Source: an uncultured Pseudomonadota bacterium (lineage in GTDB: Bacteria > Myxococcota_A > UBA796 > SXON01). Taken from it: a stretch of 40,871 nt of DNA. The notes under the pieces are model-generated. The model had not been told where the DNA came from and did no database searches. It saw nothing but the letters and a program-made list of their open reading frames with translations. Made by a program: the position numbers and the translations under genes. Positions 15,062 to 31,347 of the stretch are shown here, in pieces (the first letter of the stretch is position 1; each line of letters starts with the position of its first letter). The stretch covers positions 1 through 40,871 of the forward strand of contig CAIXRH010000188.1 in the NCBI GenBank assembly GCA_903921785.1, written 5' to 3'.

Positions 15062-16435
<1,374 letters not shown>

Positions 16436-16442
16436 TCACAGA

Positions 16443-17099
16443 ATGGAACTGACTCATGATGCTGGTGTTGTAGCGGAAGCCCGTGTGGACTCGGTGGCGG
16501 ACGGTGCCGATGCCGGTGGTCACGGTACTCCAGCGCTGCCTACCTTTCCGGCGCATCCGGCCCGATACTCCGCTTTTGGGACTGTGGCGGGCGGCTACTT
16601 TCAACATGCCTGGGGGGGGCAGTTACAGGTCGGCGCGAGCGTCGGTGCGTCGGGACTTCCCCACATGAGCATCCGACTCGGCGCGTTGGGCCGGAGTGAG
16701 ACGGATCCTCCCGCAGGCGCCCTTCGGATGGGCGGATTCGCCGCTGGCGACGTTGGTTGGTCCGTGCAGCTCGGTTCCGATTGGGTGGTTGGCCCCCGAT
16801 TCGCCGGAGAAATCGCCCGCTTCATGCCTGATGCATCCCTCGTAGGGTACAGCATGATCTCGCCCGGGGCAGAATTCGGGCGCTCACCAAGGGATGGTCT
16901 AGTTCGGGACTGGAGCGTGTACCTTTCCTGGGGATTCGGTAGCTATCACCAATGCAACTGCGGGTGGTCGTTTCCGGAAGCAGGCGCCTCTCTATTGTTT
17001 GCGAACGGCCTCCTCGTTGAGATCAACGCTTCGCTCAACAGAAGCGCAATTGGCGTCGGCTGGGAGTTCGCTCACGGCAAGGCGGACCACGGGCTGTAG
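16443..17099 (+). CDS. Hypothetical beta-rich, glycine-rich protein (218 aa)
   Basis: ATG 16443 follows GAGGAGG eleven bases upstream, within the end of the metallopeptidase-like gene, so the two are co-translated. After an acidic/Ala N-terminus (1-40) the protein shows repeated amphipathic strands with Gly turns (LQVGASVGASGL, MSIRLGALG, WSVQLGSDWVVG, WSVYLSWGFGSY, IGVGWEF), the look of a small outer-membrane barrel, though no signal peptide is visible. It has a CNC pair echoing the CxC array next door. GC content is below the window average. No family is recognised. Confidence 0.62.
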   Translation: MELTHDAGVVAEARVDSVADGADAGGHGTPALPTFPAHPARYSAFGTVAGGYFQHAWGGQLQVGASVGASGLPHMSIRLGALGRSETDPPAGALRMGGFAAGDVGWSVQLGSDWVVGPRFAGEIARFMPDASLVGYSMISPGAEFGRSPRDGLVRDWSVYLSWGFGSYHQCNCGWSFPEAGASLLFANGLLVEINASLNRSAIGVGWEFAHGKADHGL

Positions 17100-17230
17100 G
17101 TCAGTGCGAGGGACATCGTGGCAGGTGCAATCTACCGAGCATCATCCTCGATGTTCCGGTTACCGGCCACCGACATAGATACGCAAAACGAAACTCTCCC
17201 AGCAGTTCTACACCCCCACTGTCACGCCCC

Positions 17231-17347
17231 TCACGCCAACCACCACCCCAACCCCGCCATCGCCAGCAAAAACGCTCCAATCTCCGGTGCGCACCCGAGC
17301 TTCTTCCCGTGGCGGAAGCGTTTTCGCAGCCAGTCTGCCTGGTTCAC
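17231..17347 (-). CDS. Candidate 38-aa tail-anchored micro-protein overlapping the ArsA-like gene
   Basis: The GTG at 17347 overlaps the stop of the ArsA-like gene as GTGA, the coupling used throughout this genome. The 38-residue product begins with a basic segment (LRKRFRHGKK, residues 7-16) and ends in a hydrophobic run of about 16 residues (IGAFLLAMAGLGWWLA) right at the C-terminus, so it would be a tail-anchored protein with a cytosolic basic head. GC at third positions is high (32 of 38 codons), as expected for host coding. Its position after two ATPases of the Get3/ArsA family, which in eukaryotes deliver tail-anchored proteins, is suggestive. Expression is unproven. Confidence 0.5.
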   Translation of the reverse strand: MNQADWLRKRFRHGKKLGCAPEIGAFLLAMAGLGWWLA

Positions 17348-18426
17348 GACACCCCTCCGAGCGCTGCCACCGCGCCGGAGGCTTCCAGCGTAGCGCCGAG
17401 CTCCCTCAGACCGTCCAGGTCATGCACCTCTCGGGGCGACTCGGGAACTCGCCACACCCGAGCGTCGGCGGGCGCGTGGGCCACGAGGTCGGCGATCGCC
17501 AACTCCTGCGCCTCCACCCGTCCCCGTTGCCGATCCAACGCAGGCGCCACGGCCGCGCTCACCGCCTCCCACCGGGCGGCGTCCGGGATGGGGGAGGGGA
17601 GAGGCCACACCGCGGGGGGCGGCTCGGCACAACGGTTCACCAGGAAGCCGGCGAACGGCATCCCGTCCTTCCGGAGGACGTCCAGGAACGCCAACGCTTC
17701 AGCTCGGGCGCCCGGGGCCGGCGCGGTGACCAGCACGAACGTGGTCTCCGGGGCGCGGAGCAGCGCCCGCACGGCCAGTGATCGTTCTCGGAACCCAGAC
17801 CACAACGACTGGAAGCCTGCGAAGAAGTCGGCGATGTCCTCGATCGTCCCCTGGCCGAGCAGCCGCTTGAGGACGCCGGCCAGCACGTCGCTGCCCATCT
17901 CCAACATGCGCCAGCCGCTGGTGGTGGCCGGGAGCACCAGCCACCGCATCACCCCTTCGTCCATCAGCCCGGCCATCCGGTCGGGCGCGGCGAGGAAGTC
18001 GAGTGCGTGGCGGGTCGGCGGGGTGTCAAGAACGATGACGTCGGCGTCGCCGGCGGCGTGCAGCGCCAGCAGCCGCTCCATCGCCATGTACTCGTGCACT
18101 CCAGGCAGGCGCTCGCTCACGAAGCGATAGTAGTGATTGGCGAGGATTCGGTCGCGGACCTCGGGAGAGGGGGCGTGGCGGGCAACGAGGTCGTCGAAGG
18201 TGCCCTTGGCGTCGAGCATCAACGCGCGGAGCTCGCCGTTGCGCGTGGGCACCCGCTGCGCGGTGTTGTCGAGGGTGATGCCGAGCGCGTCGGCGAGGCG
18301 CCGGGCGGGATCGATGGTGAGGACGATCACCCGGTGGCCCTGCTCCGCGAGCTGCAAGGCGAGCGCCGCGGAGAGCGTGGTCTTGCCCACGCCGCCGGCG
18401 CCGCACGTGACCAGCACCCGGCTCAT
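17344..18426 (-). CDS. ArsA/Get3-family ATPase, second of tandem pair (360 aa)
   Basis: The N-terminus has the deviant Walker A GAGGVGKTT (residues about 9-17), then TIDPARRLADALG, typical of the ArsA family, and DVIVLDTPPTRHALDFL as Walker B with the family's DTPPTRH motif. The long helical middle and C-terminal strand set match a single-domain ArsA-like protein. Family members either energise arsenite export (ArsA) or target membrane proteins (Get3). There is no arsB, arsR or arsD here, so arsenic resistance is not supported. The start ATG overlaps the preceding ATPase's stop (ATGA), implying the two work as a heteromeric pair. Confidence 0.88.
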   Translation of the reverse strand: MSRVLVTCGAGGVGKTTLSAALALQLAEQGHRVIVLTIDPARRLADALGITLDNTAQRVPTRNGELRALMLDAKGTFDDLVARHAPSPEVRDRILANHYYRFVSERLPGVHEYMAMERLLALHAAGDADVIVLDTPPTRHALDFLAAPDRMAGLMDEGVMRWLVLPATTSGWRMLEMGSDVLAGVLKRLLGQGTIEDIADFFAGFQSLWSGFRERSLAVRALLRAPETTFVLVTAPAPGARAEALAFLDVLRKDGMPFAGFLVNRCAEPPPAVWPLPSPIPDAARWEAVSAAVAPALDRQRGRVEAQELAIADLVAHAPADARVWRVPESPREVHDLDGLRELGATLEASGAVAALGGVS

Positions 18427-19337
18427 GCCAGCCCTCCGAGCCGCTCGGCGAAGCCCTCGAGCTCGGTCCGCCCGAGGTCGCGCCGGAACAGGAACGGCAG
18501 CTCCGCCAGTGGCGCGCCGAGCGCCCGCATCCGGACGCGCGCCTCGGCCTGTCGGGCGAGCGCCCGCAGTTCGGCGTCCACCACCCGGACCGCGGCGTCC
18601 GCGCCGCCCGCGAGCAGCACCTCCCGATCGGCCGGCCAGGCGACCGGCTGGGGGACCGGGAGCGGGTGCATCTCGTTGAGCACCACGCCCGAGACCAGGG
18701 TGTGGAGCGCCCCGAGGCGCTGGTGGAGCATCTCCGTCTCCCGCAGCGGCATCTCCTCGGCGAGCGTGGCGAGCACCAGGGCGGTACGCCGCGGGTCCTC
18801 CACCAGCTCGGCGATCTCTTTGGCGTTGTCGTAGAACGGACCGGCGCGGGTGAGCTCCATCATCGCCCGCGGCGCGCCGAGCATCGTGAGCCCGTGGCCA
18901 GTGGCAGGGGCATCCACGATGATCTGATCCCACCTGGGTTTTCCACCTTCCATCTCCCGCTCGGCGAACCACACCTTCCCGAGCTGGATGAGGTCGTGCA
19001 GCCCCGGCACCGCATCCACGAAGGGGCCCATGACCCGGTTCTGGAAGACCAGCTTGTACAGGCGCACGAAGTGCAGCTGCAAAACCACGTATTCCTGGAT
19101 CGCGTCCGCCGGGGTGATCGACAGCGTCCAGAGGTTGGGCGCAAGCTGGCACGCCTGGTAGCCCTTGCCCGGGCGACCGAACAACGCCGGGACTCGGGTG
19201 GCGCCCTGCGTCTCACAGAGCAGCACACGCTTGCCTCGCTTCGCCGCGGCCAACGCCAGGGAAGTGGCAACCGTGGTCTTCCCCACGCCACCTTTCCCGG
19301 TGACGAGCACGACGCGGCGGTCGGAGAGGCCCGGCAT
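18423..19337 (-). CDS. ArsA/Get3-family ATPase, first of tandem pair (304 aa)
   Basis: I use ATG 19337 because the ATPase fold begins straight after it (RRVVLVTGKGGVGKTT, Walker A near residues 14-21). QIIVDAPATGHGLTML supplies Walker B with the family's D-x-P-x-TGH signature. The rest is helical with a final strand set and no membrane segment. It differs clearly from the downstream ATPase (switch motif APATGH against TPPTRH), so the pair is an old duplication rather than a recent one. Tandem ArsA-like ATPases also occur in actinobacteria and other groups, where their job is not settled. Confidence 0.88.
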   Translation of the reverse strand: MPGLSDRRVVLVTGKGGVGKTTVATSLALAAAKRGKRVLLCETQGATRVPALFGRPGKGYQACQLAPNLWTLSITPADAIQEYVVLQLHFVRLYKLVFQNRVMGPFVDAVPGLHDLIQLGKVWFAEREMEGGKPRWDQIIVDAPATGHGLTMLGAPRAMMELTRAGPFYDNAKEIAELVEDPRRTALVLATLAEEMPLRETEMLHQRLGALHTLVSGVVLNEMHPLPVPQPVAWPADREVLLAGGADAAVRVVDAELRALARQAEARVRMRALGAPLAELPFLFRRDLGRTELEGFAERLGGLA

Positions 19338-19488: not shown

Positions 19489-19815
19489 GTGCCGATCTAC
19501 GAGTACGCCTGTCCCGACTGTGGCAAGAAGTTCGACGAGCTCCAGAAGTTCGACGACCCCCCGGTCACCACCTGCCCTGGATGCCAGGGCGGCAACGTGA
19601 AGAAGCTCATCAGCGCGACCAGCTTCGTGCTCAAGGGCGGTGGCTGGTACGCGGATCACTACGGGCTGAAGAAGGGCGGCGGCGAGTCATCCACCGGCCC
19701 CGCGCCCACGGCCACGCCTGCGGCCGCGTCCACGCCTGCTTCGGCGCCGGCGGCCCCCGCCGCTGCGCCGGCCTCCACCCCGTCCTCCACCTCCTCCACC
19801 CCGAGCTCCACATGA
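19489..19815 (+). CDS. FmdB-family zinc ribbon protein
   Basis: The 108-residue product opens with MPIYEYACPDCGKKF and continues to TTCPGCQGG, giving the CxxC...CxxC zinc ribbon of the FmdB/CxxC_CxxC_SSSS family, then KKLISATSFVLKGGGWY, the conserved end of that domain. The last 45 residues are a low-complexity Ala/Pro/Ser/Thr tail. GTG 19489 has GAGGAG upstream. Members are small proteins named for formamide/amidase regulation, but the true role is unclear. It overlaps folD (ATGA). Confidence 0.9.
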   Translation: MPIYEYACPDCGKKFDELQKFDDPPVTTCPGCQGGNVKKLISATSFVLKGGGWYADHYGLKKGGGESSTGPAPTATPAAASTPASAPAAPAAAPASTPSSTSSTPSST

Positions 19816-20663
19816 GCGCCCGCATCCTCGATGGCAAGGCCATCGCCGCCGAAGTCACCGAAGCCCTCCGCGTCAAGGTGGCCGGCATGGCGCGCAAGCC
19901 CGGCCTCGCCGTGGTGCTCGTCGGCGACGATCCCGCCAGCGCCGTCTACGTCCGGAACAAGTCGCGCACCGCCGAGCGCATCGGCCTCGCCCATTGGCAG
20001 ATCACGATGCCCGCACAGACGACCGAGGCCGAGATCCTCGTCGAAGTCCGCCGCCTCGCGGCCGATCCGGCGGTCGATGGCATCCTCGTGCAGTTCCCAG
20101 TCCCCGCGCACATCGAGCGCCTGCGGGTGGTCGACAACCTCCCCGCCGACAAGGACGTGGACGGGCTCCACGTCATCAACGCCGGCCGGCTCATGCAGAA
20201 GCGCGAGGGCTTCGTCCCGTGCACGCCCGCCGGGTGCATGGAGCTGCTCGCCCGCACCGGGATGAACCTCCGGGGCGCGGAGGCCGTCGTCGTCGGTCGT
20301 AGCGACCTCGTGGGCCGGCCGATCGCGCGGCTGCTCGAGCACGCGGACTGCACGGTCACCGTCACCCACAGCCGCACCCGCGATCTCGCGGGGCACATCG
20401 CCCGGGCCGACATCGTGGTCGCCGCCGTGGGCGTTCCCGGCATGGTCAAGGGCGCGTGGATCAAGCCGGGCGCCGTGGTGCTCGACGTGGGCATCAACCG
20501 CCTCCCCGACGGCACCCTCACGGGCGACGTGGAGTTCGCGCCGGCAGCCGAGCGTGCCGGCTGGATCACCCCGGTTCCGGGCGGGGTCGGCCCGATGACC
20601 ATCGCGATGTTGATGGCGAACACCGTCAAGAGCGCCGAACGTCGGGACGCTACCGCGGGCTGA
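19812..20663 (+). CDS. folD: Bifunctional methylenetetrahydrofolate dehydrogenase/cyclohydrolase
   Basis: FolD oxidises 5,10-methylene-THF with NADP and hydrolyses the product to 10-formyl-THF in the cytosol, supplying one-carbon units for purines and formyl-Met. At 283 residues it has the normal length. Visible signatures are YVRNKSR with catalytic Lys50, GILVQFPVP, DKDVDGLH, PCTPAG, the nucleotide-binding VVGRSDLVGRP and the closing TPVPGGVGPMT. Its start overlaps the zinc-ribbon gene. Confidence 0.97.
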   Translation: MSARILDGKAIAAEVTEALRVKVAGMARKPGLAVVLVGDDPASAVYVRNKSRTAERIGLAHWQITMPAQTTEAEILVEVRRLAADPAVDGILVQFPVPAHIERLRVVDNLPADKDVDGLHVINAGRLMQKREGFVPCTPAGCMELLARTGMNLRGAEAVVVGRSDLVGRPIARLLEHADCTVTVTHSRTRDLAGHIARADIVVAAVGVPGMVKGAWIKPGAVVLDVGINRLPDGTLTGDVEFAPAAERAGWITPVPGGVGPMTIAMLMANTVKSAERRDATAG

Positions 20664-31253: not shown

Positions 31254-31285
31254 GCTGGGGAGCAGGGCGGTGGGGGGCCCCCAGC
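31254..31285. terminator. Candidate bidirectional hairpin between convergent genes
   Basis: GCTGGGG (31254-31260) pairs with CCCCAGC (31279-31285) around an 18-base loop, between the TULIP-like gene and RNase D, which converge here. No T-run on either side. Confidence 0.28.
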
Positions 31286-31347
31286 CCTTGGGCGGTTGGC
31301 TGGAATCGGGGCGTTCCGAGACCCCTCATCCGGCGCTCCGCGCCTCC

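Follow-up and report, generated by a model that had tools for sequence, protein, structure and literature searches.

The closest described relatives of the locus analysed here are BagA and BagB of Mycobacterium tuberculosis (Rv3679/Rv3680), which are Get3 homologues according to Hu et al. (2019) and protect against glycerol and nitric oxide toxicity according to Whitaker et al. (2020), both as cited in PMC10597346. The structure of the BagA/BagB heterodimer has been solved (PDB 6BS3-6BS5). The same ATPase superfamily (TIGR00345, PF02374), to which the pair studied here also belongs, includes eukaryotic Get3/TRC40 and the Get3d proteins of plants and cyanobacteria, the latter of which bind tail-anchored proteins (PMC10248533). 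The arsenical-pump ATPase ArsA, one protein with two ATPase halves, shares the fold family PF02374. To our knowledge, bacterial Get3-like systems have not been firmly shown to deliver clients.

The window, by which we mean the whole 40,871-nt stretch of DNA that was analysed, carries two adjacent ATPase genes on its reverse strand, encoding proteins of 304 aa (18423..19337) and 360 aa (17344..18426) and overlapping by ATGA. Both match the Pfam model ArsA_ATPase (PF02374), with E-values of 3.7e-27 and 4.7e-29, respectively. The best NCBIfam model is BagA for the 304-aa protein (NF053622, 129.6 bits) and BagB for the 360-aa protein (NF053621, 307.6 bits, nearly full length), both models being named for the M. 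tuberculosis proteins. Because these scores fall below the NCBI equivalog cutoffs of 400 and 521, we refer to the window ATPases as BagA/BagB homologues rather than equivalogs. The closest solved chains belong to the same heterodimer: 6bs3_A (Rv3679, E 1.7e-26) for the BagA-like ATPase and 6bs3_B (its partner Rv3680, E 8.8e-65) for the BagB-like one. When aligned to these chains, the catalytic motifs are split between the subunits as in Rv3679/Rv3680. The BagA-like ATPase keeps the lysine of the GKGGxGK signature (Walker A GKGGVGKTT) and has ETQGA at switch I in place of DPA, and the BagB-like ATPase keeps DPA and has an alanine for the signature lysine (Walker A GAGGVGKTT). Neither protein combines the signature lysine with the catalytic aspartate of DPA, and neither contains the CxxC zinc motif of the eukaryotic Get3 dimer. 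Judged by gene order, best models, closest chains and this division of motifs, the window pair is thus a BagA/BagB-type Get3-like pair, a kind already known. The first-pass annotation was right to describe tandem, overlapping ArsA-family ATPases of Get3-like character; its further suggestion that such a bacterial unit would be previously undescribed is out of date, given the solved heterodimer and the phenotypes credited to M. tuberculosis BagA/BagB in the article cited above.

While the M. tuberculosis genes are likewise adjacent, of ArsA/Get3 fold and asymmetric in the same motifs, the window pair differs in belonging to another phylum, in its sub-cutoff scores and in the micro-gene that stands behind the operon. 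It differs from Get3 in consisting of two diverged genes rather than a homodimer, and from ArsA in that these are separate, strongly diverged genes rather than two halves of one protein; no arsenic-resistance genes were recognised among the neighbours examined. Upstream and divergent from the ATPase genes lie a zinc-ribbon (FmdB-like) gene (19489-19815) and folD (19812-20663). With this pair, BagA/BagB-like ATPases, a group without firmly established clients, are seen in an uncultured lineage of deltaproteobacterial type as well. A tree of 50 BagB-like proteins resolves two BagB lineages, both found across the order, and the genome from which the window derives carries a second, diverged BagB-like paralogue elsewhere (G000:C116:60200-61297, L238).

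Behind bagB, and overlapping it by GTGA, is a 38-codon ORF on the same strand (17231..17347) with a GTG start. The basic head and hydrophobic C-terminal run noted for it in the first-pass annotation are borne out at the level of the predicted protein, MNQADWLRKRFRHGKKLGCAPEIGAFLLAMAGLGWWLA: the putatively cytosolic part (MNQADWLRKR, ending in GC) has a net charge of +5 before Cys19, and the remainder is hydrophobic to the last residue. Its conserved N-terminal peptide, taken in isolation, is MNQADWLRKRFRHGKK, with Asp at position 5 and Trp at position 6. At about 16 residues, the hydrophobic run is short, and it is also less hydrophobic than in the relatives: its best 15-mer Kyte-Doolittle mean is 1.79, against 2.0-2.9 for the transmembrane relatives. 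At the sequence level, the protein has the layout of a tail-anchored protein, namely one C-terminal membrane segment and a positively charged cytosolic part without an N-terminal signal. Shortly before the GTG, still inside the 3' end of bagB, is a Shine-Dalgarno-like GGAGGGG (17352..17358, reverse strand), which makes translational coupling of the micro-ORF to bagB plausible. Part of the GTGA/ATGA overlap is inevitable: in any gene that starts RTG AAY, with Asn as its second residue, the adjacent frame reads TGA at that point.

An ORF that overlaps the stop codon of bagB, through ATGA or GTGA, is present at the same place in seven genomes of the genus, all in one clade, with 18 invariant positions and a start of the form MNQxDWLRKRxRxxKxxGCAxEIGA. 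In this clade bagB neither extends nor terminates very differently, and its homologues are of similar length. From pairwise counts among nine genomes of the genus, pN/pS is 0.23 at codons 2-25 and about 1.0 at the hydrophobic codons 26-37; within codons 2-25, 22 of the 24 third positions vary, compared with 9 first and 8 second positions. The low ratio and the variation at third positions indicate that the cytosolic part is under purifying selection as a protein. By these measures the micro-ORF is a genuine protein-coding gene whose anchor is conserved only as hydrophobicity, and the conservation in seven genomes together with the pN/pS of 0.23 rules out a spurious ORF. It is a clear example of a conserved, real gene of fewer than 40 codons that has no curated family model.

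Profile searches found the micro-protein in other genera and families as well. Members share the peptide MNxxDW[LFM][RK] followed by a membrane anchor; most are 33-49 aa long, with a cytosolic MNxxDW[L/F/M][R/K][K/R], then a basic linker and, in most cases, Gly-Cys where the membrane begins. Those outside the genus include MNQDDWLRKRARGKTRPGCGAEIGAFLVFVGVLIYALS (G017), MNDADWLRKRVKPNKSAGCLAGLVLVGLLISLALSV (G016), MNDEDWLKRRRRGPRGGCATLLLLLGLVLVWTVG (G049) and MNDADWFKKIRRGPRGGCALLLGFAALAALAALA (G033). Among 379 genomes spanning the phylum, an HMM identified the family in 29, all within the order of the window and none outside it. The first nine codons, searched as a degenerate DNA pattern, matched 29 of the 63 genomes of the order (once in 28, twice in one), whereas the reversed pattern used as a control had zero matches in all 63; combining both approaches, 31 of the 63 carry the gene. 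It is normally present in one copy per genome, as in the genome of the window, and was found neither in the 21 genomes of family f3 nor in the other families tested. In four members (G013, G014, G029 and G041), the N-terminal peptide is kept and a basic amphipathic stretch (maximum 18-mer moment 0.53-0.60) replaces the transmembrane segment. From these comparisons, the MNxxDW peptide is the fixed element and the anchor is exchangeable, a combination that points to a specific partner.

No Pfam or NCBIfam model comes near its cutoff for any of 22 family members, the motif strings DWLRKR and DWLRKH were not found in the literature searched, and viral contigs contain no relative of the micro-protein. 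The MNxxDW small membrane proteins are thus apparently an undescribed family restricted to one order. Small single-pass bacterial membrane proteins such as AcrZ, CydX and KdpF are under 50 aa long, with one membrane segment and a conserved short face, and the micro-protein resembles them in all three respects. We know of no MNxxDW peptide in these or similar small proteins.

Outside the genus, the family is not tied to bagAB. In 21 of the 22 carrier genomes there, the micro-gene and bagB lie on different contigs. The exception is G014, which has an anchor-variant copy (VNDRDWLRKRLRAREDGWVTWLAAAVRGLRRARAAV, continuing; G014:C67:452-664, L212) on the other strand, about 4 kb away from bagB; this may reflect an earlier linkage or mere chance. 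In G007 and G008, sister species within the genus, the micro-gene stands unattached, 2-4 kb downstream from bagB, and a functional link with BagAB within the genus is conceivable; no gene between bagB and the micro-gene is common to these two genomes and G014. Elsewhere, with neighbour names read from sequence, the micro-gene overlaps a DsbA-family isomerase gene (genus g2), comes after an MBL-fold hydrolase gene or is solitary (g6), or sits between tldE- and yqeY-like genes (genus g13 of family f4). A thiol theme, drawn from the DsbA-like and MBL-fold neighbours and the nearly invariant Cys, was considered; it is suggestive, but inconsistent across genera. BagB homologues occur in every genome searched for them, including f3 genomes without the micro-gene; seven f3 homologues were placed on the tree, where they cluster with the BagB of the window and not with the second paralogue. 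Neither linkage nor co-occurrence of the family with bagAB was seen across genera. In the tree of BagB proteins, the overlap is confined to one clade (support 100/98) and requires one change. Together, these findings suggest that the overlap with bagB is most likely an accident of one clade that arose once, and that the two genes do not form a receptor/ATPase pair. Overlap of a small ORF with its upstream gene is weak evidence of partnership unless checked across genera.

On this evidence, the locus is a BagA/BagB-type operon of a known kind followed by a genuine micro-gene, whose product would probably act as a membrane-tethered docking peptide and whose place behind bagB would be accidental. 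The micro-protein would reside in the inner membrane, its N-terminus facing the cytosol, and the DW peptide, to judge from its conservation, would recruit one partner at the membrane. The protein would be tethered by the transmembrane segment at its C-terminus, which in a few genomes gives way to the basic amphipathic stretch. The position behind bagB would provide the micro-gene with translational coupling, and in sister genomes the micro-segment would serve as the signal or anchor of a periplasmic protein to which it is joined.

Other readings have been weighed against this one. The micro-protein might be a generic post-translational client of BagAB, its sole hydrophobic segment being C-terminal and still within the ribosome at termination. 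Its topology, about 18 mostly basic residues and then a terminal hydrophobic segment, fits such a client, as does the Get3-like nature of BagAB. Tail-anchored targeting by BagAB in these bacteria is itself hypothetical, and adjacency to bagB adds nothing because the link is limited to the genus. Insertion by YidC or spontaneous insertion would also suffice. We regard this reading as unlikely.

It is similarly doubtful that the 38-codon ORF is a remnant, a signal or anchor segment cut off when a rearrangement moved a periplasmic gene and coaE, though the arrangement in relatives gives this idea some footing. Five of the seven genomes with the overlap have a micro-ORF that reads on past the anchor into a periplasmic protein of 192-223 aa, and the junction bears a signal-peptidase-like AxA site. 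In G001, the micro-gene and the periplasmic gene are separate and the latter has its own signal peptide. coaE follows just behind in the six other overlap genomes (L003-L008). In the window, this periplasmic (DYLADL) gene and coaE are absent from the rearranged stretch past the micro-ORF (17100..17230, reverse strand). Their place is occupied by a convergent gene of unknown family (16383-17099, forward strand), which, like the adjoining long predicted gene at 15062-16435 (forward strand), has no Pfam match. The periplasmic gene of this genome lies beside coaE on another contig (G000:C340; L087:1405-1986, reverse strand). Because the BagB of the window nests among those of genomes with the fused gene, the 38-codon form, seen there in a single genome, could be a truncated remnant. 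Against this, stand-alone forms are what the sister clade generally has, as do other genera and families. The window ORF has a clean stop just past the anchor and keeps the conserved N-terminal residues, and its N-terminal part differs from those of relatives by 3-7.5 non-synonymous versus 9-17.5 synonymous differences. As to the order of events within the clade, the most parsimonious reading of the tree gives a slight edge to fusion as the earlier state, but outgroups with a stand-alone gene and the presence of separate signal peptides speak for separate genes at the outset.

A variant of the docking-peptide model gives BagAB a part in it: an MNxxDW peptide at the inner membrane, whose anchor may be a transmembrane helix, an amphipathic helix or a fused exported protein, and which, in this genus, would be co-translated with BagAB and handled by it. 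We consider this quite unlikely; if true, it would provide a Get3-type machine with a bacterial client or adaptor of simple genetic make-up.

The first-pass annotation had also proposed that the micro-protein could be the membrane anchor or receptor of the ATPase pair. In its strong form, as a dedicated receptor or an obligate subunit of BagAB, this draws on the shared, overlapping operon in seven genomes of one clade, on the free copies that G007 and G008 carry no more than 4 kb from bagB, and on the anchor-variant copy at about 4 kb in G014. The wider comparison does not support the proposal. Outside the genus, the micro-gene is unlinked in 21 of the 22 carrier genomes and keeps company with unrelated genes or none, the universal BagB contrasts with a micro-gene missing from all 21 f3 genomes searched and from others, and five relatives have the segment at the start of a periplasmic protein. 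As the micro-gene is unlinked elsewhere and BagB is present without it in f3, it is very improbable that the micro-protein serves BagAB as an obligate receptor or anchor.

Hardly more credible is the idea that the conserved N-terminus is an extended signal-peptide module and the stand-alone copies are signal peptides without cargo. The ESPR of autotransporters is a long basic N-terminal region that starts with MN and has a Trp before the hydrophobic segment. By description, the micro-protein is similar in its basic MN start, its Trp, its hydrophobic segment and its exported fusions in some genomes; it differs in being mostly stand-alone and in having no Pfam ESPR match. Besides the DYLADL fusion of genus g1, MNxxDW is fused to a sulfatase in G026 (L143, G026:C97:410, minus strand) and to a lipobox-bearing, proline-rich protein in G024 (L140, G024:C128:25801), and the latter two represent independent use of MNxxDW as a signal or anchor for exported proteins. 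Most copies, however, stop right after the anchor, four lack a transmembrane segment, and a genome normally holds exactly one copy, which is not what a general signal would show.

The DYLADL protein, predicted to be periplasmic, was examined in its own right. Its C-terminal part in the fused form is predicted to be all-helical, with pLDDT > 90 over most of residues 61-170; a PDB structure search returned no significant match to the fused protein, only a weak resemblance to repeat solenoids. The gene, recognisable by DYLADL...AARxxRxExxRAL in its product and without a Pfam match, is present in 20 of 22 genomes of the family, and in the nine genomes checked (also L154-L171) it is single-copy and next to coaE.

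Two minor observations concern annotation. ARAGORN calls a tRNA-Pro(TGG) at 31254-31336 (forward strand) of the window, within long open frames; Rfam finds no tRNA anywhere in the window at its gathering score, and the call is probably false. Public metagenome-assembled genomes (MAGs) of the lineage (L003, L011, L017 and L019) are titled Klebsiella pneumoniae or Bifidobacterium breve, and these titles are apparently mislabelled because the sequences are closely similar to deltaproteobacterial MAGs.
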